A stretch of 41,689 bases of DNA, taken from positions 1 to 41,689 of the forward strand of contig CAIZEI010000048.1 of the NCBI GenBank assembly GCA_903931945.1. The letters run 5' to 3'. Position numbers and translations under genes: made by a program. This DNA is from an uncultured Hyphomicrobiales bacterium (lineage in GTDB: Bacteria > Pseudomonadota > Alphaproteobacteria > Rhizobiales > Beijerinckiaceae). Positions 15,957 to 29,859 of this stretch are shown in pieces; the first letter of the stretch is position 1; each line of letters opens with the position of its first letter. The notes beneath the pieces were generated by a model that worked only from the letters and a program-made list of their open reading frames with translations, made no database searches and was not told the DNA's origin.

Positions 15957-17093
15957 CTATTCCGCAGCCCCCGCACGCCGGCGCTCGCCGTCAACGTCCT
16001 CAACGCCGCCTTCTTCGACCAGTCGCGCGACCTTGGCGCCAATCTCGGCGATGGCGCGGCGCAATTGAGCGGCTTCATCGGGATCGTCGAGCCCTGCCCC
16101 GCCGTCGCGGCCGGTATAGGCCATGCGGCGGGCGCTTTCCTGACGAGCAATTGTGAGCGCCCCTTGCAGGGCGGCGTTTTCCGTCCGCAGGTGCTCAAGT
16201 TTCTGCAACATGTCGCTGGTCCCGCCGCTCATCGCGGAAATGCGGTTTGCATGCTCCTCGCGCAGACTGGCCTCGCGTTCTTCGGCGCGCGCCAGAGCGG
16301 CTGTCTGGGATTCAAGTTCCGTCTCAAAGTGCATCCGCTGACGCCTTTCGATGCGCAACTGGCGCTCGAATTCGTCGGCCCCCGTCTGGGCGTCGCGAAG
16401 TTGCGCCAAAGTCTGCTCGTAGCGCACTGCGAGCGCATCGGCTTCCGAACGCGCGGCGGCGTGCTGATCCTCAAACGCGAGGACAGCGCGGGAGAGATCG
16501 AGCGTCTGAACCTGAGCCAGTTGATGCGCCGCGCGTAGATCCTGCAAGTCCGCCTCATGCGCTGCGATGCGTGTTTCGAGCCCGGCGACAGTTGCGCGTT
16601 GTTCGTCGATATGGGCGAGGGCGTCCTGATGCTGGTCCAGCAATTCGGCATGTGCCCTGGTCTTGTTGTTGAGGCGACCTTCTGTGTCCCAATGCAGCTG
16701 CTGCGACACGCCCAGTTCCGCGCGCGCGCTCGTCAGCTCGTCGCCCAGCGTGGCCAGCCGTCCAGCACGGGCTTCGCTTTCCCGCCAAACCTCGACAATT
16801 TCTGATTCCAGCGTCGCTATGTGCCGCGCCCGGCGGCCCAATTCGGCCATGTCGCGAGCGCGGGCGTCGAGCAAATCCTCGCTGCGTTTTTCGAGCCGCC
16901 GCTGCTCCATCGCAAATTCGGCCCGCAACTGATCACGTTCGGCGACGATTTCAGTCATCGAGAGCGGCAGTTGCATTTCGAGCGAACGGGTCGAAAGACG
17001 CAAGGCCCGACGCCAGAAATGCGGCAGGCAGAGCAGCGCGAGCAACCCGGTCAGCAAGCCCCCGAGGGCGAAATACAGCGCGTTCTCGATCAA
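15957..17093 (-). CDS. Membrane-anchored coiled-coil protein of unknown function
   Basis: I do not recognise a named family. The 378-residue product has one N-terminal membrane segment (residues 5-25, ALYFALGGLLTGLLALLCL), then a positively charged stretch (WRRALRLSTRSLE), then a very long Ala/Glu/Arg/Leu-rich coiled coil from about 45 to 320, and a charged tail. Similar single-pass coiled-coil proteins occur beside cell-envelope genes in Hyphomicrobiales, from memory. The start is a TTG at 17093 with a weak ribosome site, chosen because the membrane segment follows at once. It lies 85 bases downstream of eipA on the same strand, so a structural envelope role is possible but unproven. Confidence 0.75.
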   Translation of the reverse strand: MIENALYFALGGLLTGLLALLCLPHFWRRALRLSTRSLEMQLPLSMTEIVAERDQLRAEFAMEQRRLEKRSEDLLDARARDMAELGRRARHIATLESEIVEVWRESEARAGRLATLGDELTSARAELGVSQQLHWDTEGRLNNKTRAHAELLDQHQDALAHIDEQRATVAGLETRIAAHEADLQDLRAAHQLAQVQTLDLSRAVLAFEDQHAAARSEADALAVRYEQTLAQLRDAQTGADEFERQLRIERRQRMHFETELESQTAALARAEEREASLREEHANRISAMSGGTSDMLQKLEHLRTENAALQGALTIARQESARRMAYTGRDGGAGLDDPDEAAQLRRAIAEIGAKVARLVEEGGVEDVDGERRRAGAAE

Positions 17094-17178
17094 AATGACC
17101 CAGCCTGTTCAGCGGACGAGCCGCCCGCTTTGTCGCGCCGGAGGGCGCGCGTGCCTTGTATTGCCAGAGTCCGTCTTC

Positions 17179-17757
17179 TCAGAACGGATTCCAGGTCGAT
17201 TCCGGGGTAAATTTCAGATAGCCGAGATTCACGCCAAGACGGGCGCCTACCCCGGACCGGATCGGCACAATGACGATATTCTCCGCTGTCAACGCCGTAA
17301 ACCCAAATCCTCCAATAAGGTAAGCCGAGCCATTGATCCCGCCGTAACGCCGGAAAATAGCGTTCACAGCCGGCAGATTATAAACCAGCATCATCGTGCG
17401 GTCGCCATCCGCCCCCGCATCGAAGCCAAGCGAAGGCCCCTGCCAGTAAACCTTCGTGTCGCCCGCATTGCGGGTGTACATGATCCCCTCGCCGTAGCGG
17501 GCGCCGGCGACAAAGGCGCCCGACGCCTCCTGCCCGAGAATGTAGGCGTTCGGCTGGCCCCAGCGTTTGGTCGCCGCCTCGACGGCCTGCGCCAGGCCGC
17601 GCGAGATCGATCCGAAAAACTGATGCCCGCTGCTGACGAGTTGGTCGGTCGAGAAAGTCTGGGGACGCGCGGATTGCTGCGCCACCGCTGGCGCGCCAAG
17701 GCCCGCCCCGGCGAGCGCCAATGTGGCCACGACCTGTCTGCGGTTGATTCCGATCAT
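17179..17757 (-). CDS. eipA: DUF1134 periplasmic envelope protein, EipA-like
   Basis: This 192-residue exported protein has a signal peptide with a twin Arg (NRRQVVATLALAGAGLGAPAVAQ), followed by the DUF1134 domain: AVEAATKRWGQPNAYILGQEASGAF, a glycine-rich region with GDRTMMLVYNLP, then YGGINGSAYLIGGFG. The Brucella abortus member, EipA, is a soluble periplasmic beta-barrel protein needed for envelope integrity, and its gene is directly activated by CtrA (established there). Here a near-consensus CtrA box and a GANTC site lie about 120-150 bases upstream, which agrees with that regulation. The start has GAGGG a few bases upstream. Family assignment is by eye. Confidence 0.8.
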   Translation of the reverse strand: MIGINRRQVVATLALAGAGLGAPAVAQQSARPQTFSTDQLVSSGHQFFGSISRGLAQAVEAATKRWGQPNAYILGQEASGAFVAGARYGEGIMYTRNAGDTKVYWQGPSLGFDAGADGDRTMMLVYNLPAVNAIFRRYGGINGSAYLIGGFGFTALTAENIVIVPIRSGVGARLGVNLGYLKFTPESTWNPF

Positions 17758-17874
17758 GCTGCCCTCATCTGTCAGCGCTCACGCGCGCGTTTTGCCCGGT
17801 CGCATATCCCGCGGCGACCATGGCCCCGCCGGGGCGCAGGTGCGGCGGTTTCTGGCCGGGCTCACATTCTGAAC

Positions 17875-17907
17875 GATTCTTCCGCAACAGGGTTAACGGA
17901 GTGTTGA
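17875..17907 (-). promoter_or_regulatory. Putative CtrA box and CcrM site upstream of eipA
   Basis: On the minus strand TCAA-N7-TTAACC (17891-17907) differs from the CtrA consensus TTAA-N7-TTAA by one base. A GATTC (GANTC methylation type) lies at 17875-17879. They are about 120-150 bases before the eipA start. Confidence 0.5.
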
Positions 17908-17924
17908 CCGAAACGGCTTTCGAT

Positions 17925-18764
17925 TCAATCGTCGATCGTCGTCGCTTTCGCCAACGCCGGATCGCCCCAGGCGACAAAACCCTCATTGCGATAGCTTTTG
18001 CTTTCCGCGCCATAATGCAAAGGCGCGCCATCGACGCCCAGCACGACGCCGCCCGCTGCGCGCAGGACCGCTTCGCCGGCCGCCGTGTCCCATTGCATCG
18101 TCGGACCGAAGCGCGGATAGACGTCCCCGGCGCCCTCCGCGATCAGACAGAATTTCATCGAGGACCCCACCGGTTTGCGTTCGCTGACGCTCAGACGCTC
18201 AAGCAAGGCCAAAGAACGATCATCCATATGGGACCGGCTTATAAGGGCGGACAGGCGACCCGATTGACCTTGCCGGACTTGCAGAGGTCGCCAGCTTTCC
18301 GGCCCCGGCATGGGTTCTCCGGCTTCGGCAGGCATGACGAACCCGCGCCGTCCACCGATCCACAAGCGGCGCAGGGCAGGCGCAAAAACCGCCCCTGCGA
18401 CTGGCGCGCGATCGCGCACAAGCGCTATATTGACAGTGAAATCGTCGCTGCCGGAGAGAAACTCCCGCGTGCCATCGAGCGCGTCGACCAGAATGAACGC
18501 GCCGGCGATTTCGGGAAGTTCGCCCCGCGAGGCGCATTCTTCGGCGACGACGGGGATATCAGGGCGCTGTTTGGCAAGGGCCGCCAGGATGATCTTTTCC
18601 GCGCGCTCGTCCGCATCCGTCACCGGACTCGAGTCCGGCTTGCTGCGAACTGTGTATCCGGTCCTGCGGGCGTCAAGAATGGCCAGGCCCGCAGCAAGCG
18701 CAATCGCGCCAAACATCGCCGCCAAACTGTCCTCGTCCCTTTCGGGGAATTTGTTTTTATTCAT
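17925..18764 (-). CDS. cysQ: 3'(2'),5'-bisphosphate nucleotidase CysQ-like (inositol monophosphatase family)
   Basis: This 279-residue Mg-dependent phosphatase probably removes the 3' phosphate of PAP, a by-product of sulfate assimilation. Metal-site motifs are all visible: EE at 75-76 (VVAEECAS), the D94-A-L-D97-G-T signature (VDALDGTREF) and the C-terminal WDTAAGEAVL. GSSMKFCLIAEGAGDVYPR matches the CysQ subgroup (SSxKFCxIAxGxADxYPR) better than inositol monophosphatase. The ATG at 18764 has no clear ribosome site, and an ATG at residue 17 is possible. No sulfate-assimilation gene is adjacent. It is divergent from chpT. Confidence 0.88.
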   Translation of the reverse strand: MNKNKFPERDEDSLAAMFGAIALAAGLAILDARRTGYTVRSKPDSSPVTDADERAEKIILAALAKQRPDIPVVAEECASRGELPEIAGAFILVDALDGTREFLSGSDDFTVNIALVRDRAPVAGAVFAPALRRLWIGGRRGFVMPAEAGEPMPGPESWRPLQVRQGQSGRLSALISRSHMDDRSLALLERLSVSERKPVGSSMKFCLIAEGAGDVYPRFGPTMQWDTAAGEAVLRAAGGVVLGVDGAPLHYGAESKSYRNEGFVAWGDPALAKATTIDD

Positions 18765-19059
18765 CGCGAATCAACAATACCACGTCTGCGGAATTTTCGA
18801 AGCGGCGATGGAAACCACTGGTTAACCCTCAACGTGGCAGGGTCGTCCCTGTCCGCCGCCACCCCGGGCGGGCCGATCCTGCTTTGAGGGCTGTCATGGC
18901 CATAGAATCAGGATATCAATTTGCCGGGTGATTCGGAGTTGGTCCGCCTCTCCGGATGCGTGTGTTTGAACGCGAGCGCCAATGACCGATCGGTCATCGC
19001 GATTGCAAGGTCAGAAGTTACCCTGGAGCCGCTCGCGGCGCCGCAACCCGGAACCCATC
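18765..19059 (+). promoter_or_regulatory. Promoter region of chpT with CtrA half-site and GANTC sites
   Basis: This 295-base divergent gap holds the palindromic GGTTAACC at 18820-18827 (a TTAACC CtrA-type half-site on each strand) and three GANTC sites: GAATC at 18768 and 18905, and GATTC at 18930. The cluster suggests CtrA and CcrM control of chpT and perhaps cysQ. Core promoter elements are not clear to me. Confidence 0.45.
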
Positions 19060-19785
19060 ATGTCGCTCCCCCAGATGGCGCATGCCGCCAACCCCGAAGA
19101 AGCGCCCGCGCCGATAACCCAGCGGGCCATGCTCTCCCTTGATGCGCTGGACCTTGCCGCGCTCCTCTGCTCCCGCGTCTGCCACGACGTGATCAGCCCT
19201 GTTGGCGCTATCGTGAACGGCCTTGAAGTTCTGGAAGACGAAAAAGACGCCGACATGCGCGCTTTCGCCATCGACCTGATCAAGAAAAGCGCCAAAACCG
19301 CATCGAACCGACTGCAGTTCTGCCGTCTTGCCTTTGGCGCGGCAGGCTCCGCAGGCGCCTTGATCGACACCGGCGATGCGGAAAAGGTCGCAAGCAACCT
19401 GCTCGCTGACGAACGCACCAAAATCGTCTGGAATGCGGCGCGGGTGCTGCTGCCCAAAAACAAGGTCAAGCTTGCCCTCAACCTGTGCCTGATCGCGAGC
19501 GCGGCGATTTCACGCGGCGGCGTGATTACGGTCACCATCGAAGGCCAGGACGTCGCCACAAGAATTGGCGTTTCCGCCAAGGGCGCCAACGCCCGCCTTT
19601 CGCATGGCGTACCGGCCCTTCTGGCCGGACGTCCGGAAACAGACAGCATCGACGCACATGGCATCCAGGCATATTATACCGGCCTGGTTGCGCGGACCTG
19701 CGACATGCATTTGACGGTCGAGCTGACCGGCGAGGGCGTTGAGCTTCTGGCCATTCCCGCAATCCCGGTCGAGGCCGCCGCCTGA
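19060..19785 (+). CDS. chpT: Histidine phosphotransferase ChpT
   Basis: This 241-residue protein has the ChpT layout: a dimerising helical hairpin with the phosphoacceptor H42 in LLCSRVCHDVISPVGAIVNG, and a degenerate ATPase-like domain (no N-box or G-box) that docks receivers. In Caulobacter, ChpT passes phosphate from the hybrid kinase CckA to CtrA and CpdR. It is encoded here upstream of a complete chemosensory set, and ctrA lies about 5 kb away. I chose the ATG at 19060; the frame stays open to 18982, but that part is Arg-rich and unlike the family. Its gene is separated from cheA by 129 bases containing a hairpin. Confidence 0.92.
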   Translation: MSLPQMAHAANPEEAPAPITQRAMLSLDALDLAALLCSRVCHDVISPVGAIVNGLEVLEDEKDADMRAFAIDLIKKSAKTASNRLQFCRLAFGAAGSAGALIDTGDAEKVASNLLADERTKIVWNAARVLLPKNKVKLALNLCLIASAAISRGGVITVTIEGQDVATRIGVSAKGANARLSHGVPALLAGRPETDSIDAHGIQAYYTGLVARTCDMHLTVELTGEGVELLAIPAIPVEAAA

Positions 19786-19811
19786 CCCTTCAGACCATTT
19801 CATTTGCAAGC

Positions 19812-19837
19812 TGCGATGCGGAAGCCCCCGCGTCGCA
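19812..19837. other. Hairpin between chpT and cheA
   Basis: TGCGATGCGG and CCGCGTCGCA form a 10-bp stem (one G-T pair) with a 6-base loop. No T-run follows, so it is more likely an attenuator or mRNA-stability element than a classical terminator. It lies upstream of the cheA start I chose. Confidence 0.4.
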
Positions 19838-19914
19838 AGCCTCCCTTAACTCATTGCAGTCATTCTAGCCTGGAATTGACCCTGCCTTCGCCTGGCGGGG
19901 AACAGGCCAGGTCA

Positions 19915-22500
19915 ATGGACGATATTCTCAAGGAATTTTTAGCCGAAACCAGCGACCAACTCGATTCGGTTGGCGCGCAGCTCGTGCAATTCGAGCAAGA
20001 CCCAGGCAACGCCAGGATCATTTCCTCGATTTTCCGTCTGGTTCACACCATCAAGGGCACCTGCGGCTTTCTCGGACTGCCCCGACTGGCCAACATCGCG
20101 CATTCTGCTGAAACGCTGCTCGGCAAATTGCGCGAGGGCGCCAAACCGACGCATGAACGGGTCTCCCTGATCCTGACGGCGATCGACCGAATCCGTCTCA
20201 TCATCACCGTTCTCGAGCAACAGGCGCTAGAGCCGGAGGGCTCGGACACCGATATCATCGGCGCGATCGAGGTTGAAGTTGGCGGCAACGACGCCGCTCA
20301 TTTCGAGTCCGACAACAGCGATCCCATGTCGATCCCGGTGCCCGAAACCGAGGACAACGCCGCCATCGATCATGACGACATGCACGCCACGTCCACCGCC
20401 AGGGCGGAACATACGCCCGCGACGCAGATGGCAGCGCCCGGTCACGCCACCATCCGTGTCGCGGTCGGCGCCCTTGAACGCATTATGGCGCTGGTGTCGG
20501 AATTGGTGCTGACACGCAACCAGCTGCTTGAAATAACACGTCACAGCAACGATGAGCTGATCAAGAACCCGCTCCAGCATCTCTCCTCGCTCACAACAGA
20601 TTTGCAAGACAGCGTCATGCGGGCGCGGATGCAGCCGATCGGTCGACTGTTCTCGAACCTCCCCCGCCTCGTCCGGGAACTTGCAGCCGATCTCAACAAA
20701 AAAATGATGCTGGTCGCCGAAGGGTCAGACACCGAACTTGACCGCCAGTTGATCGAACTGATCCGCGATCCCCTGACCCATATGGTGCGCAATTGCGCCG
20801 ATCACGGGATCGAGACGCCCGAGCAGCGCCGCGCGACCGGCAAGCCCGAAATCGGGCGGATTCTCGCACGCGCATCGCATGAAACAGGACATATCAATAT
20901 TGAAATATCCGACGACGGGCGCGGCCTCGACGTGGAGCGGATTCGAGCCAAGGCGATTTCTCTGGGCCTTGCAAGCGCGGACGAAGTTGCGCGCATGACC
21001 AACGATGCGGCATGTCGATTCATTTTCGCAGCGGGCTTCTCGACCGCCGCGCAGGTCACCAGTATTTCGGGGCGCGGCGTCGGCATGGACGTGGTGCGTG
21101 AAAACATCGAATCCATCGGCGGCAGCATATCGCTATCGACGACCATCGGTCGGGGAACCACTTTCTCACTGAAAATCCCGCTAACGCTCGCCATCGCGCC
21201 GGCTCTCATCATTGAATCGCATGGCCACCGCTTTGCGCTGCCACAACATGCCGTCGTGGAAGCCGTCGGCGTCGCTGACAGCAACGCGCGGGTCGATAAT
21301 GTACAAGGCGCGCTGGTCCTGCGCCTTCGCGACCAGGCTTTGCCCATAGCCGACCTCGGCCGCTTTCTCGGTTTTGAAGATTGCACCAGCGCGGTGTCGG
21401 AAGACCAGCTGGTCGTCGTGATGCGTGTTGGATCGATGAACTTTGGCATCATCGTCGATGCTGTTTGCGATGTGCAGGAAATCGTTGTCAAGCCGCTGGG
21501 CCAATCGCTTGCCGGGCTGACAACATTCTCCGGCAATACGATTCTGGGCGATGGTTCGGTGGTGCTGATCCTCGACCCGCCCGGCCTGGCAAGAACCCTC
21601 GGCCTCGATAACCCCAACGAATTCAGCGTCGCGCCCGCTCGTCCGGCGTTCACAACGCCGCGCGAGCCGATGCGTCTGATCGTTTTCCGCGCGGGCCCCG
21701 GCGCATTGAAGGCGGCGCCGTTGTCGATCATCTCACGCATCGAAAGCGTCCGCAGCGAAGCGATCATCGAATCCGACGGCATTCGCGTGATGTATCATCA
21801 GGATCGCCTGATGCCGCTCATCAGTCCAAGCGAGGATGTGGTTTCAACCATGCCTGGGGGCGTTCAGCCCGTGCTGGTGATCGGCGTTGGCGGCGAGCCC
21901 ATGGGGCTCCTGGTTTCCGAGATCGTCGATATCGTCGAGGAATATCTCGAAATTGAAATCGCAGGCGCGGGGAACGGCGTCATCGGCTCCACCAGCATCA
22001 ACGGAAATGCCACGGAAATACTGGATATGGCGTATTTCATGCGTCTTGGGCGCCCCGGCGCATTCCAGCGCGGACACACCCGCAGGTTCTCGATCCTGAT
22101 TGTCGATGACAAATTGTTCTTCCGCGACATGCTGGCGCCGATTGTGTCGGCGGCCGGCTATGAAGTGTCGACTGCCGGGTCGGCAGCCGAAGCGCTCGAA
22201 TTTTTCGACAAGGGCGCCAGTTTCGACGTGATCGTAACGGACACCGATATGCCGGGGATGGATGGGTATTCGTTTGCGCGCAGTCTTTTAAAGGAGCGTC
22301 AACGCGCGCTCCCGATCATCGCGATGGCGGCGCACGCAGTGCCCGCCGTTCTCGAAGCCGCTCGAGCGGCCGGCATGTGTGCGGCCATCGGAAAATTCGA
22401 TCGCAGCGCCCTGCTGAACGCAATCAGCGAAGCTCTCGACGGCGGGGCGTTCAATTTCCACGCTCTTGAATCGACCATTATTGCAAAGGCAGCAGCATGA
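19915..22500 (+). CDS. cheA: Hybrid chemotaxis histidine kinase CheA with C-terminal receiver
   Basis: This 861-residue kinase has, in order: an HPt (P1) domain with H44 in RLVHTIKGTCGFLGL; an acidic linker without a clear P2 domain; a P3 dimerisation helix pair near 180-250; an ATPase domain with N-box VRNCADHGIE, DDGRGLD and GRGVGMDVV; a CheW-like P5 domain; a second CheW-like segment (about 590-710, VLVIGVGGEPMGLLVSEIVDI); and a receiver (from about 725) with phosphoacceptor D776 (TDTDMPGMDG) and K827. The conserved receiver Thr/Ser is Ala (about residue 805, AMAAHA). The start at 19915 gives the family N-terminus MDDILKEFLAETSDQL. cheW follows with an ATGA overlap. Its partner could be CheY, CheB elsewhere, or ChpT. 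Confidence 0.93.
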   Translation: MDDILKEFLAETSDQLDSVGAQLVQFEQDPGNARIISSIFRLVHTIKGTCGFLGLPRLANIAHSAETLLGKLREGAKPTHERVSLILTAIDRIRLIITVLEQQALEPEGSDTDIIGAIEVEVGGNDAAHFESDNSDPMSIPVPETEDNAAIDHDDMHATSTARAEHTPATQMAAPGHATIRVAVGALERIMALVSELVLTRNQLLEITRHSNDELIKNPLQHLSSLTTDLQDSVMRARMQPIGRLFSNLPRLVRELAADLNKKMMLVAEGSDTELDRQLIELIRDPLTHMVRNCADHGIETPEQRRATGKPEIGRILARASHETGHINIEISDDGRGLDVERIRAKAISLGLASADEVARMTNDAACRFIFAAGFSTAAQVTSISGRGVGMDVVRENIESIGGSISLSTTIGRGTTFSLKIPLTLAIAPALIIESHGHRFALPQHAVVEAVGVADSNARVDNVQGALVLRLRDQALPIADLGRFLGFEDCTSAVSEDQLVVVMRVGSMNFGIIVDAVCDVQEIVVKPLGQSLAGLTTFSGNTILGDGSVVLILDPPGLARTLGLDNPNEFSVAPARPAFTTPREPMRLIVFRAGPGALKAAPLSIISRIESVRSEAIIESDGIRVMYHQDRLMPLISPSEDVVSTMPGGVQPVLVIGVGGEPMGLLVSEIVDIVEEYLEIEIAGAGNGVIGSTSINGNATEILDMAYFMRLGRPGAFQRGHTRRFSILIVDDKLFFRDMLAPIVSAAGYEVSTAGSAAEALEFFDKGASFDVIVTDTDMPGMDGYSFARSLLKERQRALPIIAMAAHAVPAVLEAARAAGMCAAIGKFDRSALLNAISEALDGGAFNFHALESTIIAKAAA

Positions 22501-23056
22501 GACTGCCAGAACTCACCCGAAAAACAACGACGCCGCGGGCCGTCGATGCGCCGGCGTCACGCGAACGCAACATTTTCACAGTCACCTCAGGACAGGAAAA
22601 GCTCGCGCTTCCTGTCGAATATGTTCACACCATATTTCGCATTGCACGGATTACGCCAGTGCCATGCGGGCCGAAGGAAGTCGTCGGCCTGGCCAATTTA
22701 CGCGGCAAGATCGTGACGGTCGTCAGTCTTCGTCGTCGCCTTGGGATGCCCGACGCCGGCGAAGGCGTGAGTCCGTTGGCGATCGGCATCGAGCATCTTG
22801 GCGAAAGCATTGCGCTGCTGGTCGATGCCGTTGGCGACGTTATCACAGTCTCGGAAAAGGACAGAATTGCAGCGCCTCCGCATCTTGCGCCCCAGCGCAT
22901 TGGCGTCACTGCCGCAGTTTACGCATACAATGATGGCATTCTGTCGGTCCTCGATATGGACGCCCTCTTCGATTTCAGCCATCCAGAGCGCGGCGGCCTG
23001 AACGCGCCCGCCTCCGAGCCAACCTTTACCCACTTTCACAGGCAAGGAAATCAGTC

Positions 23057-23060
<4 letters not shown>
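22497..23060 (+). CDS. cheW: Chemotaxis coupling protein CheW
   Basis: This 187-residue scaffold has the CheW double beta-barrel: FTVTSGQEKLALPVEYVHTIFR, VVGLANLRGKIVTVVSLRRRLG (the family segment normally read as GxxNLRGxxxPVxDLR), and ALLVDAVGDVITVSEKD. It joins CheA to receptors in chemosensory arrays. Short disordered ends flank the domain. Both ends overlap the neighbouring genes by ATGA, so cheA, cheW and cheY are translated as one coupled unit. Confidence 0.92.
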
Positions 23061-23422
<362 letters not shown>

Positions 23423-23524
23423 ATGCTGGCGACGAAATGAATCAAACGTTCGCGTTTTCGGGACTTCCCGGCGATGTCATCCGGGTTCGACGAAGCGTCG
23501 CCTCATCGAACCGGGAATAATACC

Positions 23525-24241
23525 ATGCACACCAGCGGACCGCTCAGACTCAAACAGGTTGCGAAAGAATTGGCCGCACAGTCAACGTCGAGCCTGGCGC
23601 CCAAGGCTGCCGCTGCGCTGACATTGGGCCGCTATTCCGCTTGCGCCCCACGCGCCCTTTTCGTGGGCGCTTCAACCGGCGGACCGCAAGCCCTCGCAAA
23701 ATTTCTTGGCGGCCTGGCGCCTGAAATCGGGGCCCTCCCCATCTTCGTCGTTCTCCACGTCCCTGCCGATTTCACTTCGATTGTGACAACCAACATTGCG
23801 CGCATTACCGGTCTGGAAGTGCGCATCGGCGCACATGGCGAACAGGTGAAACCCGGCAAGGTCTATTTTGCCCCGGGCGACATGCATATGCGTGTCCTCC
23901 GCATGGGCGAAACGCCAGTGATTGTGCACAGCAACGCCGCGCCGGAAAACTTCTGCAAGCCTGCGGTTGATGTTCTATTCCGCTCGGCTGCGCAATCATT
24001 CGGCCCCAGCGCGCTTGGCATCATACTGACGGGGATGGGCGCTGACGGGCTGGCGGGCTCGCATGCAATTGTTGAAGCGGGCGGCGCCATCATTGCGCAG
24101 GACGAGGCAACCAGCGTTGTCTGGGGAATGCCGGGCGCGGTCGCCCGGAGCAAACTCGCTGCGGCTGTCCTGCCAATCGATGAAATTGCCGGGACTGTGA
24201 TTGGATTGACCAGGGGCCAGCGACCAGGGAGAGCGCGATGA
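23525..24241 (+). CDS. cheB: CheB methylesterase lacking a receiver domain
   Basis: This 238-residue protein is only the catalytic half of CheB (usual length about 350). The catalytic triad is present: S50 in GASTGGPQAL, H78 in VVLHVPADF, and D174 in GMGADGLAGS. The normal N-terminal receiver is replaced by about 40 residues rich in Lys, Ala and Ser. It should remove methyl groups from chemoreceptor glutamates but cannot be activated by its own phosphorylation. The start at 23525 is preceded by GGGAA; an upstream ATG at 23474 would add 17 residues and still no receiver. Its stop overlaps cheR (ATGA). Confidence 0.9.
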   Translation: MHTSGPLRLKQVAKELAAQSTSSLAPKAAAALTLGRYSACAPRALFVGASTGGPQALAKFLGGLAPEIGALPIFVVLHVPADFTSIVTTNIARITGLEVRIGAHGEQVKPGKVYFAPGDMHMRVLRMGETPVIVHSNAAPENFCKPAVDVLFRSAAQSFGPSALGIILTGMGADGLAGSHAIVEAGGAIIAQDEATSVVWGMPGAVARSKLAAAVLPIDEIAGTVIGLTRGQRPGRAR

Positions 24242-25077
24242 TTGACGCCTTTCCCAGATTTTCCAGCCTGATCCGGCGAACCTCGGGCATCGTGCTGGAC
24301 AATGACAAGCAATTCAGCGTGGAATCGCGCCTGTTGCATCTGGCGCGTCAGCGCGCCTGCGAAAATGTTTCGGCCCTGGTTGCACGCCTTCTGGACTCTA
24401 ATGATCAAGCGTTGCTTGCCGAGGTCACGGATGCGTTGACGACGAACGAAACGTTCTTTTTCCGCGACCGCACGCCATTTGATCAATTTGACGAGTTAAT
24501 TTTGCCCTATCTGCTAAAAGCGCGCGCCAGCCAGCGATCGATTCGCATCTGGTGCACGGCCTGCTCAACAGGGCAGGAGCCCTACTCGCTGGCCATGACG
24601 CTTGACCAGCGCGCCGCGCATTTGCGGGGATGGCGCGTGCGAGTGCAGGCGACGGATATTTCTGGAGCCGCTATCACGGCGGCGCGGGAAGGCCTGTACA
24701 ATCAATTCGAGGTGCAAAGGGGAATGCCGGCCAATTTCCTCTTGCGGTATTTTTCGCGGGACAAGGAACGCTGGCGCATTTCCGAGCACCTGCGATCCAG
24801 CATCCGCTTTACACAATTCAATCTGCTGAACGATTTTGATGAACGCGGGGAATATGACGTGATATTTTGCCGCAATGTGCTGATCTATTTCGATGCGGCG
24901 ACGCGGGTCGATATTCTGGGGAGACTGAGCAAAGTCCTTCGTCCAGACGGTTTTCTGATCCTCGGGGCCACCGAAACCATCGCCGCCGACGATCCGGTAT
25001 GGAGCCCTGGCGCCCATCCGATGCTTTTCGTTCGACCCGATGGCGTGCATGCTGCACGAAGTCCGGCGTCGGCCTGA
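24238..25077 (+). CDS. cheR: Chemoreceptor methyltransferase CheR
   Basis: This 279-residue SAM-dependent methyltransferase methylates receptor glutamates. It shows the N-terminal all-helical domain, TTNETFFFRD near residue 69, the SAM site WCTACSTGQEPYSLAM near 102-117, ATDISGAAITAAREG, and CRNVLIYFD near 210. It is the last gene of the plus-strand chemosensory operon and converges with ctrA, with 59 bases between the two stop codons. No receptor (MCP) with a CheR-docking tail is in the window. Confidence 0.93.
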   Translation: MIDAFPRFSSLIRRTSGIVLDNDKQFSVESRLLHLARQRACENVSALVARLLDSNDQALLAEVTDALTTNETFFFRDRTPFDQFDELILPYLLKARASQRSIRIWCTACSTGQEPYSLAMTLDQRAAHLRGWRVRVQATDISGAAITAAREGLYNQFEVQRGMPANFLLRYFSRDKERWRISEHLRSSIRFTQFNLLNDFDERGEYDVIFCRNVLIYFDAATRVDILGRLSKVLRPDGFLILGATETIAADDPVWSPGAHPMLFVRPDGVHAARSPASA

Positions 25078-25136
25078 CGTTTTGCACGATATTGAATGGC
25101 GGCGGGCGGCTGGATCAGGCGCTGGCGTGCAAGGCG

Positions 25137-25838
25137 TTACGCCGTAATGCGTTCGTCGTTTTCCGAAGGCTCGCGCAAAACATAGCCACGTCCCCAGACG
25201 GTTTCGATGTAATTGCGTCCCTGGCTCGCATTGGCCAGTTTCTTGCGCAATTTGCAGATGAACACGTCGATAATTTTGAGTTCCGGTTCGTCCATGCCGC
25301 CATAGAGATGATTGAGGAACATTTCCTTGGTGAGCGTCGTCCCCTTGCGGAGGGAAAGCAGCTCCAGCATCTGATATTCCTTGCCAGTCAGATGGACGCG
25401 CACGCCGCTGACTTCGACCGTCTTCTGATCCAGATTGACGACAAGATCGCCTGTCGTGATGACCGACTGCGCATGTCCCTTGGAACGGCGGACGATGGCG
25501 TGAATGCGGGCGACGAGCTCGTCCTTGTGAAACGGCTTGGTCAGATAATCGTCGGCGCCGAAGCCGAGACCTTTCACCTTGTCTTCAATGCCCGCCAACC
25601 CGGACAGGATCAGGATCGGCGTCTTGACCTTCGCAACCCGCAAGGTGCGCAGCACCTCATAACCGGACATGTCGGGCAAATTCAGGTCGAGCAATATGAT
25701 ATCGTAATCATAGAGCTTGCCGAGATCGATGCCCTCTTCGCCAAGGTCCGTCGTATAGACGTTGAAATTCTCGGACTTCAGCATCAGTTCGATGCTTTGA
25801 GCGGTTGCGCTGTCATCTTCAATTAATAATACGCGCAT
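25137..25838 (-). CDS. ctrA: Cell-cycle master response regulator CtrA
   Basis: This 233-residue OmpR-type regulator is the CtrA of alphaproteobacteria. The receiver has acidic residues E7-D8-D9, phosphoacceptor D51 ([16 protein letters not shown]), and KTPILILSG with [15 protein letters not shown]. The DNA-binding winged helix holds the near-invariant [15 protein letters not shown] and [24 protein letters not shown]. CtrA controls origin firing, division, flagellar and envelope genes. The start at 25838 fits the family; the frame runs on to 25892. It is fed by ChpT (encoded 6 kb away) and restrained by SciP, also in this window. Its upstream region holds GANTC and CtrA-type sites. Confidence 0.97.
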
Positions 25839-26398
25839 GAGAGTCCCCAAATTGCCGCCAGCCAGCCTCCCGCCCCGAAACACGAGGGTCAAGCGACCAA
25901 TCTTCAGGGCGGCTGCCCCGTTAAAACCAACTCAGTAACCTTAACGACCAATGGTTAACAAAGTCTGATTCCCCAGTGCAAGACCCAAAGCGGAATGTTG
26001 ATCAAAATTCTGAAAAAACCTTCTGGAACAAGCCAAAAGGCAAAATTTATAAATTAAAGCATTACTTTAAGAAACACGCCCAATCGATTCTTGTGACTCA
26101 CAACTGGCGAATTAAGGCGGCAGGCGATACAGCAGATGACCTTTCAACCTGACGCCTGCCAGAATGAACGCGAAGCAGAAACTTTTCGTTAATTCCGCTG
26201 GGGCAGCTCAAACGAATCACTTGTTGCGGGATCGATGATTCGGCATTCGGGCGAAAAAACAGCATTCCGGCGGCGATGGTAAGGAAGCAGCAACCTCCCT
26301 CGTTCATGGTGAATTTGTCTCGCGGATACCCTGAACGCCCCGCCCGCCTGTCGGCTGCGGGGGAAATGAATTTAACCTGCGTGACGGAGTAACGAGTG
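25839..26398. promoter_or_regulatory. ctrA-fliJ divergent control region with GANTC cluster and CtrA half-sites
   Basis: This 560-base gene-free region is unusually AT-rich (25920-26100) for this genome. It contains six GANTC sites (25841, 25967, 26086, 26095, 26214, 26237). A perfect CtrA half-site TTAACCAT lies on the minus strand at 25951-25958. Another TTAA at 25941 makes TTAA-N10-TTAA rather than the full N7 spacing, and TTAACC occurs at 26372 before fliJ. The pattern fits ctrA promoters known to be controlled by CcrM methylation and CtrA autoregulation. I could not locate -35/-10 elements with confidence. Confidence 0.6.
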
Positions 26399-26803
26399 AT
26401 GAAATCGCGGGATACGCTGATACGCCTCAAGAAATTTCAGGCGGATGACCGGCGCAAGCGGGTTGCGCAAATCGAGGCCATGATCGCGGAATTTACGCGC
26501 ATGGCCGGCGATCTCGATCGGGAAATCGCGACGGAAGAACAGCGCTCGGGCAACGCCAACCCTGCGCACTTTGCCTATTCGACCTATGCGCGAGCGGCGC
26601 GCGGGCGCAGGGACAATCTGAAAAACTCGGCCGACGAACTGCGCGGACAGCTTGAAGAAGCCAAAGCGAGACTGGCCGAAGCTCTGGAGGAGGTCGCCAA
26701 AGCGCAATCTCTGGACGGTCGCGACAAAAGCGAACGCGTCATCGAATCCATGCGGGACCGGGCTGACCCGAACCTGATTGGATTGCGTCCCCTCGGCGCC
26801 TGA
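26399..26803 (+). CDS. fliJ: FliJ-like flagellar export chaperone
   Basis: This 134-residue, almost entirely helical, charged protein has the FliJ layout: MKSRDTLIRLKKFQADDRRKRVAQIEAMI, then a coiled coil to about residue 100 and a short tail. FliJ links the export ATPase FliI to the flagellar type III gate. Alphaproteobacterial FliJ is commonly encoded next to ctrA, which supports the call; the sequence alone is low in specific motifs. ATG at 26399 lies after GGAG; a GTG directly before it is an alternative. No other flagellar gene is in the window. Confidence 0.75.
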   Translation: MKSRDTLIRLKKFQADDRRKRVAQIEAMIAEFTRMAGDLDREIATEEQRSGNANPAHFAYSTYARAARGRRDNLKNSADELRGQLEEAKARLAEALEEVAKAQSLDGRDKSERVIESMRDRADPNLIGLRPLGA

Positions 26804-26908
26804 GGTCAGATTCAAACGCCGGATTCGGCGCATCGCTCTTGCGCCATCCCCGGCCATCGGGCAGGGAGACAAGCGACCGGCGCAAGGCGCGTCTTCTGGC
26901 GGACCTGA

Positions 26909-27958
26909 ATGAAGCGGTATCTCGATTACGTCTGGCCGTTTCTCGGATTGGCCGCTGTCATACTTTCAGCGTGGCAGCTCTATGAAAAGCTGAAGGCTGA
27001 AGCCGCCTCGGAGCCCCGGACCAGGGCGCTTCTGGCGGCCAGCGACTTCTGGCCCAGCCTCAAGATTATTGCGTCGGTGATCGGCGCCAAACTGGCGGCC
27101 ATCCCGCCCGGATCGTATGTGCTGGCGTTTGGTTCGACGCTTCTCGCCTACACGGCGCTGGCCTGGTATGACCGGATCGCGCTGATTCACCTGCGCCGTC
27201 AGGCCGGCATCTCGTTTTTTTATGTGGCGACCTGCTCGTTTGTCACCTACGCCCTGTCGCACAACATTGGCGCGTCGGTTGTTTCGGGCGGCATGGTCCG
27301 TTTGCGCGCCTATACCGCCAAGGGCCTGACCGCTGCAGACGTGGCGGTTCTGGTTGCCCTTTGCTCGTTCACATTCGCCTTCGGGACAATTCTACTGATG
27401 GGCGTCGTGCTGCTGATCGAGCCTGAAATTCTTGCCCCGCTGAGCTCTCTGTCCCGTCATTTTGCCATTAACGCCGCTGCCGCCCGCGTCATGGGCGCCA
27501 GCATGGTCGCCTTTTGCATGCTCTATACTCTGGGCTCGTGGCTCAAGTTGCACCCGCTCAAGATCGGCGATTTCCGGATCACCTATCCTGGCATGCCCAT
27601 TGTCATTCGCCAATATCTAGCCGCGCCGATCGAGCTGATGGGCGCCGCAGGAATTATATATTTTGCGCTTCCATGGGACGCCAATCCAGGATTCCTGATC
27701 GTGCTTGGCGCATTTCTACTGTCATTCTCCGCCGGGCTGCTGTCTCAGGTGCCGGGCGGCGTTGGCGTGATGGAAGCCGTTTTTCTGGCTGTCATGCCGC
27801 AAGTGCCCGCAACAGCAGTCTTTGCCGCCCTGCTGGTCTGGCGGCTGCTCTATCTGCTGCTGCCGCTGGCGCTGGCGATACCGGTCATTATCCTTTTTGA
27901 ACGGTCGCAAATCGGCAAGGCGACGCAAGGTCTCAGTCCACCGCCCGGAAGCCACTGA
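26909..27958 (+). CDS. YbhN/UPF0104-family multispanning membrane protein (LPG synthase-like)
   Basis: This 349-residue inner-membrane protein has about eight hydrophobic helices and the conserved segments of the lysylphosphatidylglycerol synthase transmembrane family: YALSHNIGASVVSGGMVRLRAY near residue 115-135, and the PGGVGVMEAVF segment near 285-297. It lacks the soluble aminoacyl-transfer domain of MprF, so it is a stand-alone flippase-like domain rather than a synthase. Members may move lipids or lipid-linked groups; function here is unknown. It is 105 bases downstream of fliJ and ends before a terminator shared with sciP. Confidence 0.85.
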   Translation: MKRYLDYVWPFLGLAAVILSAWQLYEKLKAEAASEPRTRALLAASDFWPSLKIIASVIGAKLAAIPPGSYVLAFGSTLLAYTALAWYDRIALIHLRRQAGISFFYVATCSFVTYALSHNIGASVVSGGMVRLRAYTAKGLTAADVAVLVALCSFTFAFGTILLMGVVLLIEPEILAPLSSLSRHFAINAAAARVMGASMVAFCMLYTLGSWLKLHPLKIGDFRITYPGMPIVIRQYLAAPIELMGAAGIIYFALPWDANPGFLIVLGAFLLSFSAGLLSQVPGGVGVMEAVFLAVMPQVPATAVFAALLVWRLLYLLLPLALAIPVIILFERSQIGKATQGLSPPPGSH

Positions 27959-28009
27959 AATCCGGACAATTCTCACTCGATTGCGCAATGGCGTTCGCGC
28001 GCAGCAAAA

Positions 28010-28035
28010 CGGGGATTGACCTGGATCAATCCCCG
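28010..28035 (-). terminator. Intrinsic terminator after sciP
   Basis: CGGGGATTGA and TCAATCCCCG form a perfect 10-bp stem with a 6-base loop. On the minus strand TTTT follows directly, so it should end the sciP transcript; it may also stop the plus-strand YbhN transcript. Confidence 0.75.
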
Positions 28036-28077
28036 CGAACGATTTGCAAATGATAGTCGATGTTCCAGCGAAGCTGC

Positions 28078-28353
28078 TTACTGGCGATACTGCTGAATAC
28101 GCGTTGTGCGCAATCCGGCCAGCCCGTGCTGGTCAAACGAGAGCTGCCAGCTCAGAAACTCGTCCACGGTAAGCGTGTAGCGGCTACAGGCTTCATCCAG
28201 TGAAAGGAGTCCGCCCCGGACAGCGGCGACAACCTCGGCCTTGCGCCGGATAACCCAGCGCTTGGTGCCGCTCGGCGGCAAATCGGCGATTGTCAGAGGG
28301 CTGCCATCGGGCCCGATCACGTATTTTACCCTCGGGCGGTGGGGTTCAACCAT
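28078..28353 (-). CDS. sciP: SciP, small CtrA inhibitory protein (DUF1153)
   Basis: This small helix-turn-helix protein of 91 residues has the family signature PRVKYVIGPDGSPLTIADLPP at its start, then RWVIRRKAEVVAAVRGGLLS, the helix-turn-helix SLDEACSRYTLTVDEFLSW, and ending GLRTTRIQQYR. In Caulobacter SciP binds CtrA on promoters and blocks its activation in G1. The start is taken as the ATG at 28353; a GTG three codons earlier (28362) is possible. It is expressed away from mnmA, and the gap between them carries a perfect CtrA half-site, which suggests feedback. Confidence 0.92.
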   Translation of the reverse strand: MVEPHRPRVKYVIGPDGSPLTIADLPPSGTKRWVIRRKAEVVAAVRGGLLSLDEACSRYTLTVDEFLSWQLSFDQHGLAGLRTTRIQQYRQ

Positions 28354-28540
28354 GTTACTCACTCGCTACTGGCCACTGGAAAACTCACTGTAGATGACAA
28401 CCTACGCGCGCCTTTTTAAAATTTGCCTAAGCAGACCAATCTGAAACCCATTCAAATCCGCCTGAAATTGGCATTTTTATTGTGCTTCTATTAGGATTTA
28501 CAAAAATTCGTCCTCCTTCGGCACACACATCGACATCGTG

Positions 28541-28548
28541 TTAACCAT
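28541..28548 (+). promoter_or_regulatory. CtrA half-site TTAACCAT in the sciP-mnmA gap
   Basis: A perfect TTAACCAT lies about 190 bases before the sciP start and about 90 bases before the mnmA start. No second TTAA follows at the N7 position. A GATTC at 28576-28580 is nearby. The AT-rich stretch 28410-28510 may hold the sciP promoter. Confidence 0.45.
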
Positions 28549-28638
28549 ATTTGCGAGACGCCCTGATTTTGCCGCGATTCCAGCCCGAGGTTGCATTCGT
28601 CGGCCAAATAGGATTTCTGCGCCAACGGGAACCCAGAT

Positions 28639-29859
28639 ATGCCGGAACCATTGGCCAGCCACACGGGCGCCACGCCTCCCCCGGGAGGCCTGCGCCCGAC
28701 CTTCTCTAGCTCCGCTCGCGAGCCGGCCCTGACGCGCGTCGTCGTGGCTATGTCCGGCGGCGTCGATTCCTCCGTCGTGGCAGCGCTGCTGCACGCCAGG
28801 GGGTACGATGTGATCGGCGTCACCTTGCAGCTTTATGACCATGGCGCCGCGAGCAGGCGCAAGGGCGCGTGTTGCGCCGGACAGGATATCGCAGACGCGC
28901 GCGCTGTCGCCGCCCGCCTCGGTATTCCCCATTATGTGCTCGATTATGAAAGCCGGTTCCGCGAACGGGTCATTGATCCCTTCGCAAAGAGCTACCTCGC
29001 TGGCGAAACCCCGATCCCCTGCGTCTCCTGCAACCAGCATGTGAAGTTCACCGACCTCCTCGATACCGCGCGCGACCTTGGCGCCGATGCGCTGGCGACG
29101 GGCCATTATATTTCCTCCCGCCCGACGGCGGATGGCGGCAGGGCTCTATTCCGCGCCGCCGACCCTGACCGCGATCAGAGCTATTTTCTCTTCGCGACCA
29201 CACGCGAACAACTGGATTTCCTGCGCTTTCCTCTCGGCGATCTCCCCAAGAGCGAAGTGCGCGCGCTGGCCCGCGAATATGGGCTCGATGTCGCCGATAA
29301 ACCCGACAGTCAGGACATCTGCTTCGTACCCGAAGGCCGCTACACAGATATTGTCCAGAAGCTCGCGCCGTCGGCTGCAGACCCCGGCGATATCGTCCAT
29401 ATCGACGGCAGGGTTCTGGGAAGGCACAGCGGATTGATGCGCTATACTGTCGGCCAGCGCAAAGGGCTTGGCGTCGCCGACCACGGCGGCGGATCGCCTT
29501 TGTACGTTGTTCGGCTGGAGCCTCAGACCAGGCGCGTGATCGTCGGCCCCCGGCAGGCGCTTGCGACCACGCATGTCGAATTGCGCGATATCAACTGGAT
29601 CGGCGACGGCGACTTTAGCGAAAGCGCTCGCGATGGAATGGAAATCGCGGTCCGGATGCGCTCAACGCGCGCGCCAGCCAGCGCACGGCTCTACGCCCGA
29701 CCGGAGGGCGCGTTGGTCGAGCTTTACGCCGGCGAAGAGGGCGTCGCACCTGGACAGGCCTGCGTCTTTTACGATAGCGCGGGGGCCGGCGCGCGCGTGC
29801 TTGGCGGCGGCTTCATTCGCGCAACTACGCCCGCGCGGCAGACTATGGCCGCATTCTGA
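28639..29859 (+). CDS. mnmA: tRNA-uridine 2-sulfurtransferase MnmA
   Basis: This 406-residue enzyme places sulfur on C2 of the wobble uridine of tRNA Lys, Glu and Gln. Visible features are the PP-loop SGGVDSS (39-45), the catalytic cysteines C131 ([11 protein letters not shown]) and C228 (SQDICFV), GHY and DQSYFLF, and the C-terminal beta-barrel. About 32 residues before the PP-loop domain are Pro/Ser-rich and longer than in E. coli MnmA, so the true start might be internal. Stop and next start overlap as TGATG. Confidence 0.95.

Follow-up and report, generated by a model that had tools for sequence, protein, structure and literature searches.

An F5-class chemosensory operon between chpT and ctrA in a Beijerinckiaceae genome: spread, candidate outputs, and apparent retention without flagella

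When a set of chemosensory genes is seated among the genes of the CtrA cell-cycle relay, does its kinase signal into that relay or only to a flagellar motor? The question is raised by a 41,689-nucleotide stretch of DNA, hereafter the window (contig CAIZEI010000048.1 of assembly GCA_903931945.1, from an uncultured Hyphomicrobiales bacterium of the family Beijerinckiaceae), in which the gene order is chpT-cheA-cheW-cheY-cheB-cheR, followed by a convergent ctrA, a FliJ-like gene, a membrane-protein gene, sciP, and mnmA. The roles of ChpT, CtrA, and SciP are those established in Caulobacter. A first-pass annotation had listed chpT, the five che genes, ctrA, and sciP in this order, all of which are present, with ChpT, CtrA, and SciP passing curated cut-offs, and had proposed that CheA signals through its own receiver domain to ChpT. 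On the evidence presented here, all of it sequence-based and mostly from draft genomes, we lean, if only slightly, towards the reading that in the genus of the window organism this F5-class operon has a partly non-flagellar output, that the CheA receiver does not feed ChpT, and that CheY is the output. The operon appears to be retained in the genus even where its flagellum seems gone.

Spread of the gene order and class of the operon

The gene order is not specific to the window genome or to Hyphomicrobiales; it is widespread. From 41 genomes (the window genome, G000, and 40 relatives), 37 chpT regions were obtained, all from relatives; three further relatives lacked a usable chpT match, and G000 itself was left out of the count. 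An F5-type cheA follows chpT in 19 of the 37 regions, representing seven family codes (f1, f7, and f11-f15). In 10 others, chpT is followed by a CheY-like gene but not by cheA; in five, no Che match separates chpT from ctrA; the last three regions are truncated or show neither. When named genomes were searched with an F5 CheA alignment, at least 581 loci were confirmed, and the counts that follow refer to the best 80 of these; the loci were chosen for F5 cheA, and the counts therefore tell how often F5 cheA adjoins chpT, not the reverse. chpT lies directly upstream of cheA at 59 of the 73 loci with at least 900 bases upstream, and a sixtieth chpT-positive locus (L104), the cheA frame of which is open far upstream, was identified by tblastn. 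By recorded order, the adjacency was found at 28/32 loci in Hyphomicrobiales, 7/8 in Rhodospirillales, 7/11 in Acetobacterales, 1/1 each in Sneathiellales, Maricaulales, and a Micavibrio filed under Bdellovibrionales, and 14/19 unassigned loci, i.e. in at least five orders; the ChpT proteins of Acetobacterales score low (31-77 bits) and are candidates only. Of the 60 loci readable downstream, 35 have ctrA there, in 30 of them convergent and no more than 2 kb away, and both flanks are occupied, by chpT and ctrA, at 29 of the 55 loci readable on both sides. The block order is common and, judging by its taxonomic spread, old. An order peculiar to the window genome, be it a novelty or a chance arrangement, was rejected, as the same block recurs widely, in agreement with the expectation in the first-pass annotation that related Hyphomicrobiales might share it.

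Within this sample, an Azospirillum sp. locus (L125) carries chpT and ctrA beside F5 che, whereas Azorhizobium caulinodans, Azospirillum brasilense Sp7, and Bradyrhizobium diazoefficiens lie outside the sampled loci. In three operon-bearing genomes (G015, G048, and G054), the contigs start in or just before cheA. At the F5 cheA locus of Rhodoblastus acidophilus DSM 137 (L119), no chpT or ctrA match was found within 10 kb on either side, bar a weak response-regulator match, and the F5 operon of G045 (L067) lies beside ctrA with no chpT match in the 4.2 kb upstream of cheA, unlike that of its relatives. No description of the chpT-che-ctrA block was found in the open-access literature, with few subscription papers included, and this does not establish the block as unpublished; in the accessible part of a survey of CtrA-relay gene positions, the word 'chemotaxis' is absent from the main text (PMC8116508).

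Chemosensory systems are sorted into classes by a scheme that is reportedly due to Wuichet and Zhulin. Judged by its gene set and CheA architecture, which fit the class description in the available parts of two papers (PMC10782961, PMC8429497), the window operon is an F5-class operon. Azospirillum Che1, Azorhizobium che, and two Bradyrhizobium clusters are named there as members, and both a CheA that carries its own receiver and clusters without receptor genes are described within the class. The CheA receiver (PF00072 at residues 764-874, C-terminal), already seen in the first-pass annotation, and the missing receptor gene are thus unremarkable. Pairing with 38H chemoreceptors is a further mark of the class. 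No chemoreceptor was matched on the window contig, as had also been noted; a profile search of the genome identified two, on contigs C135 and C62 (439 and 435 amino acids, with HAMP and MCP domains), together with a single CheA by PF02895. The window shares with the class the cheA, cheW, cheY, cheB, and cheR core, but the description of this set as complete holds for the genes and not for all of their domains. CheB lacks its usual receiver and the CheA receiver its Ser/Thr switch, and of the two CheW-like domains expected in an F5 CheA, the first is clear (2.1e-29) and the second, before the receiver, is weak (3.5e-4; 20.7 bits, below the cut-off of 23.5). In the CheA of a relative (L018), two CheW stretches were detected.

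Loss of the CheB receiver and, nearly always, of the switch marks the genus. A CheB receiver was found in 0/18 genus sequences and in 72/74 others, one of the two exceptions being L088, a Rhodoblastus metagenome-assembled genome without a genus code, which was counted among the others; L086, L087, and L089, apparently the contigs L077, L071, and L073, were excluded from the genus counts of CheB, CheA residues, and receiver signatures. CheB methylesterase activity may therefore lie outside CheA control in the genus. In the window CheA, Hpt His81 and receiver Asp813 and Lys864 are retained and the switch site is Ala842 (numbering from the TTG at 19804). Among readable genus sequences, the receiver keeps the phospho-Asp in 22/22, the acid pair in 21/22, and the Lys in 21/21, whereas the switch site (n = 21) is occupied by Asp in 13, Ala in seven, and Ser in one; outside the genus, a Ser or Thr is found in 75/80. 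A linker motif, GEV.L, is present in 25/82 other CheAs and in 0/27 genus rows (27 includes four near-duplicate or unassigned rows). The likely phosphate outlets of CheA in the genus, as read from these residues, are CheY and the receiver of CheA itself. In G043 (L074), no cheB or cheR match was found between cheY and ctrA, despite a gap of ~2 kb.

The CheA receiver and the proposed route to ChpT

The window shares ChpT, CtrA, and SciP with the CckA-ChpT-CtrA/CpdR phosphorelay of Caulobacter and Brucella, and CckA and one CpdR occur in the genus; it differs in the chemosensory operon between chpT and ctrA. In the accessible text of a structural account (PMC9981736), contact with ChpT involves an Ala at position 581 of CckA (Ala11 in CtrA, Ser in CpdR), which lets the helices approach, as well as residues 585, 588, and 589, and a FATGUY motif is present in CckA and CpdR. 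We scored this motif as F.[ST]G[YF], with F.[ST]G as a looser pattern; contact residues of CtrA and of published CpdR were taken from the same source, and CpdR-like sequences were also read by eye. CheA receivers have Phe at 581 in 21/21 readable genus sequences and 82/82 others (103/103 in total) and Pro at 588 in 22/22 and 81/82 (103/104), and FATGUY was found in 0/104, with the looser pattern in 2/104. Genus CckA receivers, in contrast, have Ala581 in 30/30, FATGUY in 27/30, and the looser pattern in 30/30. The 12 CpdR-like proteins of the genus all carry FATGUY, one of them passing the CpdR cut-off (200 vs 180 bits), and eight have Asp at 581, the remaining four rows (Met in two, a gap in two) being misplaced in the alignment. 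The Phe/Pro signature is identical in F5 CheAs with and without an adjacent chpT. The usual partners of ChpT are present in the genus: CckA scores above its cut-off in 30/34 genomes, and one member has a confirmed CpdR.

Compared with the CckA-type Rec_inter domains described in the available part of PMC9981736, the genus CheA receiver retains the phosphorylation site, but it lacks FATGUY and has Phe581 and Pro588 in place of Ala and Arg. CckA keeps the switch Ser, whereas genus CheA receivers have lost the switch residue, and an allosteric output is therefore unlikely. In A. caulinodans, dephosphorylation of the CheA Hpt requires the receiver of the same protein, which is apparently no sink, while a sink role is favoured for other CheAs, according to the accessible text of PMC10782961; the A. 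caulinodans behaviour fits an internal role of the receiver. A relay from the CheA receiver to ChpT, as the first-pass annotation had proposed, is thus disfavoured and unlikely. The argument from the signature has its limits, as CtrA itself lacks FATGUY and the CheA receiver might dock in another way.

Operon and flagellum in the genus, and the lone CheY

The F5 operon, FlhA, and hook/rod genes (Flg_bbr_C) were scored in 34 genus genomes that are at least 90% complete, and a genome with either marker was regarded as flagellated (FlhA only in G003, Flg_bbr_C only in G045). Operon and flagellum are both present in 16 genomes, the operon only in six, the flagellum only in nine, and neither in three, i.e. 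the two are statistically unlinked (p = 1). Among genomes scored without the F5 operon, three (G042, G046, and G053) carry a CheA of another class. In G002, a CheA fragment lies at the end of a contig. The test has the power to detect a link, since the association of CheA with chemoreceptors shows up: receptors are present in 25/25 genomes with a CheA of any class and in 3/9 without (p = 6e-5). The six genomes with the operon and no FlhA or Flg_bbr_C match are G041, G044, G047, G013, G020, and G015 (completeness 99, 99, 100, 96, 93, and 92%, respectively), and chpT is directly upstream of cheA in all except G015, in which the contig starts in cheA. On a CckA tree of 30 of the 34 genomes (four without a full-length CckA excluded; a quick method with support from the Shimodaira-Hasegawa-like approximate likelihood ratio test only, and two long branches), the flagellum changes at least eight times and the operon four times, and the state 'operon without flagellum' changes five times, four of them on well-supported branches. 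Seven independent pairs of genomes with unlike flagellar states, too few for a significance test, share the same operon state in 6.4 cases on average.

The Che genes of G013 and G020, neither of which has an FlhA, Flg_bbr_C, or FliM match, are under purifying selection: the ratio of nonsynonymous to synonymous substitution rates (dN/dS) between them is 0.079 for cheA, 0.102 for cheW, 0.029 for cheY, 0.109 for cheB, and 0.136 for cheR (dS 0.62-0.97), and the same genes give 0.06-0.29 in two flagellated genome pairs. The retention of the operon in six genomes without marker matches, together with purifying selection in one pair, makes it unlikely that the Che core serves a flagellar motor alone in the genus. 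The part of the first-pass annotation that looked beyond the motor therefore finds some support at the level of the genus, whereas its ChpT route does not, and the window genome itself is flagellated.

Several observations weigh against a non-flagellar role. Constraint is weaker between G047 and the flagellated G045 (cheA 0.20, cheW 0.33, cheB 0.32, and cheR 0.55), where, as dN/dS frames run from stop to stop, some frames are longer than the genes, in this pair those of cheY and cheR; the comparison of G013 with G020 presumes a single loss of the flagellum before their split. The six marker-less genomes are all drafts, in 90 to 580 contigs and probably metagenome-assembled; flagellar islands may have been left out of the bins or be too divergent for detection, just as PF02154 overlooked FliM in G000, which is flagellated, and only two markers were scored in all six. 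Outside the genus, 6/6 examined genomes with the operon beside chpT have FlhA and FliM, so that flagellar coupling is the norm, and the window genome has FlhA, five Flg_bbr_C matches, FliN, and a divergent FliM. For these organisms, no data on phosphotransfer or phenotypes were found.

At 10 of the 37 chpT loci, a receiver gene follows chpT without cheA, at a distance of 54-530 nucleotides (nine measured). These lone CheYs align with F5 CheYs and keep the phospho-Asp in 10/10. In a CheY tree based on 120 columns, with many open forks and nine lone CheYs (L020 left out), most of them fall among the F5 CheYs, several on long branches, and that of L026 stands apart. PF02895 finds nothing in seven of the 10 genomes, and FlhA is absent from four (completeness 100% in G001 and G039, 84% in G033, and 88% in G040). 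This distribution suggests that cheA, cheW, cheB, and cheR were lost at these loci and the receiver was retained, and further suggests that a lone receiver is of some use without CheA and without a flagellum. F5 and lone CheYs carry no FATGUY and mostly have Val at 581, so the lone CheYs are not obvious phosphate partners of ChpT. A precedent for acting on the relay by binding is Osp of Rhodobacter sphaeroides, a single-domain receiver that inhibits CckA directly and for which phosphorylation was not observed, according to the available part of PMC9430884. Like Osp, the lone CheY is a single-domain receiver, and its tie to the CtrA relay is one of neighbourhood.

How these data bear on other explanations can now be weighed. 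That the CheA receiver donates phosphate to ChpT, so that chemoreceptors feed the CtrA relay directly, would be in keeping with the same-strand adjacency and probable co-transcription of chpT and cheA at 59 of 73 readable loci among the best 80 of at least 581, with a receiver that keeps its phosphorylation residues and has nearly always lost its switch, as expected of a phosphate passer or sink, and with docking residues in ChpT that match S26, A30, and N33 (numbered with the active His as 22). We nevertheless hold it to be very improbable, given Phe581 and Pro588 where partners have Ala (CckA and CtrA) or Ser (CpdR) at 581, the missing FATGUY, a signature indifferent to chpT, the presence of CckA and CpdR in the genus, and the behaviour of the A. 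caulinodans receiver. Plain flagellar chemotaxis, in which the motor is the only target of the operon and its synteny with chpT and ctrA is historical or goes back to control of motility genes by CtrA in an ancestor, is somewhat unlikely. It agrees with the flagellar genes of the window genome and of the six relatives outside the genus, and deletion of cheA1 and cheA2 in B. diazoefficiens, in the same strain of which two F5 clusters are listed (PMC8429497, available part), abolishes soft-agar chemotaxis with no growth defect, as far as the accessible text reports (PMC13390405); it is at odds with the operon in six of 22 operon-bearing genus genomes without FlhA or Flg_bbr_C matches, with at least four changes on well-supported branches, with dN/dS of 0.03-0.14 in the marker-less pair, and with the lack of a link between operon and flagellum.

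If F5 CheY regulated CckA-ChpT-CtrA as a single-domain protein, much as Osp, DivK, or CpdR do, with CheA or, where CheA is missing, another donor supplying the phosphate, this would suit its position as the most constrained Che protein of the marker-less pair and its solitary retention after chpT, with Osp demonstrating inhibition of CckA by such a protein; however, CheYs differ at the contact positions from ChpT partners of the CckA and CpdR type, CheY is missing between chpT and ctrA at five of 37 loci, several lone CheYs on long branches may be decaying, and two of the four FlhA-less genomes are only 84 and 88% complete. We regard this role as unlikely. By analogy, the operon might steer some other surface machine, such as pili, adhesion, or exopolysaccharide, in members without flagella. 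Chemosensory systems with non-flagellar output are known, and deletion of cheY1 in A. brasilense improves attachment and raises biofilm formation; PMC8100600, in its available part, itself offers lower swimming speed as a cause of the improved attachment. Such steering seems distinctly improbable.

Under the reading that we prefer, an operon with CheY as its partly non-flagellar output, the F5 operon would have been seated between chpT and ctrA since early alphaproteobacterial evolution. Receptors encoded elsewhere would form a sensory array with CheW and CheA; CheA would phosphorylate CheY, and its receiver would trade phosphate with the Hpt of CheA itself, with no handover to ChpT, while CheR and an unregulated CheB would set receptor methylation. 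CheY would be the output, probably acting on the motor in flagellated members, and in the genus it would have a non-flagellar target in addition or instead. What joins chemotaxis to the CtrA genes would then be, for the most part, common ancestry and the joint regulation of motility functions, to which CheY may add a regulatory connection.

Features of the window and implications

Table 1. Genes of the chpT-ctrA block, with positions in the window and profile matches
Feature	Position	Strand	Evidence and remarks
chpT, histidine phosphotransferase of the CtrA relay	18982..19785	+	curated NCBIfam equivalog NF046018, 292 bits (cut-off 240); PF10090; conserved domain 19129-19746, true start uncertain
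cheA, F5-class	19915..22500	+	Hpt, H-kinase_dim, HATPase_c, CheW, weak second CheW, Response_reg; open reading frame opens at TTG 19804, conserved start (MDD..) is ATG 19915
cheW, coupling protein	22497..23060	+	PF01584, 1.4e-25; 4-nucleotide overlap with cheA
cheY, single-domain receiver	23057..23422	+	PF00072, 7.3e-29; aligns with F5 CheYs; 4-nucleotide overlap with cheW
cheB, methylesterase without the usual receiver	23474..24241	+	PF01339 only
cheR, methyltransferase	24238..25077	+	PF01739, 2.2e-54; 4-nucleotide overlap with cheB
ctrA, master regulator, convergent with the che operon	25137..25838	-	NF045991, 423 bits (cut-off 350); open reading frame opens at 25892, ATG at 25838
FliJ-like coiled-coil protein	26396..26803	+	TIGR02473, 39 bits (cut-off 50, not reached)
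flippase/LPG-synthase-TM-like membrane protein, conserved neighbour between the FliJ-like gene and sciP	26909..27958	+	PF03706, below cut-off
sciP, CtrA inhibitor	28078..28362	-	NF051866, 137 bits (cut-off 100)
mnmA, tRNA modification, functionally unrelated; closes the conserved block	28639..29859	+	PF03054

The overlaps at cheA-cheW, cheW-cheY, and cheB-cheR suggest that the che genes form one operon, which probably includes chpT. ChpT has relatives of known structure in PDB entries 4qpj, 4fpp, and 4fmt. Upstream of chpT, three genes without a Pfam match (15957-18887) recur before chpT in many relatives. With one mismatch allowed, CtrA boxes (TTAA-N7-TTAA) gave five matches in the window vs 2.7 expected, near chance, with none between ctrA and the FliJ-like gene and none just upstream of chpT, so CtrA control of the che operon has no motif support; a scan of the window for promoters and terminators was likewise near chance (5 vs 3.4 and 14 vs 11.3). 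A box-like site with one mismatch lies at 28416-28430, 54-68 nucleotides upstream of sciP. The gene annotated at first pass as fliJ is present at its place but is only FliJ-like, and no Pfam match was found for its product at 0.001. Its orthologues are retained in genomes without flagellar marker matches (L035 11383-11835; L041 5306-5707), and its dN/dS is 0.05 between G013 and G020. Given the sub-threshold score and this retention, the gene beside ctrA may not be a flagellar fliJ. A host without flagella, considered when FliM was not found, was rejected, as the other flagellar genes and a divergent FliM are present. In G000, the FliM at C82:36342-36943 (L064, L065) is apparently too divergent for the Pfam FliM model, and only the C-terminal domain model finds the candidate.

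Synteny with F5 cheA also flags candidate ChpTs, weakest in Acetobacterales, in groups where the published survey found few, the accessible part of which gives ChpT in 27-36% of Rhodospirillales genomes (PMC8116508). A block that links chemosensing and cell-cycle genes class-wide bears on the cell length of Azospirillum, which the F5 CheA1 alters in a way stated to be unknown (PMC8561660). A rather speculative extension, which we rate as quite unlikely, is that the F5 array of the genus is no longer a motility system only and serves as an environmental input to the CtrA programme. CheA would phosphorylate CheY, whose gene adjoins chpT and stays there by itself after loss of the kinase, and CheY would act on CckA, ChpT, or CtrA as a single-domain regulator; if true, such a route from CheY to CtrA would explain the change in cell length. 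The block also bears on the role of chemosensory arrays after the loss of the flagellum, for which the genus represents a natural experiment, as loss of the flagellum seems, several times, to have left the operon in place. Two things merit follow-up, namely the altered F5 system of this genus, which apparently persists without flagella, and the solitary CheY next to chpT.

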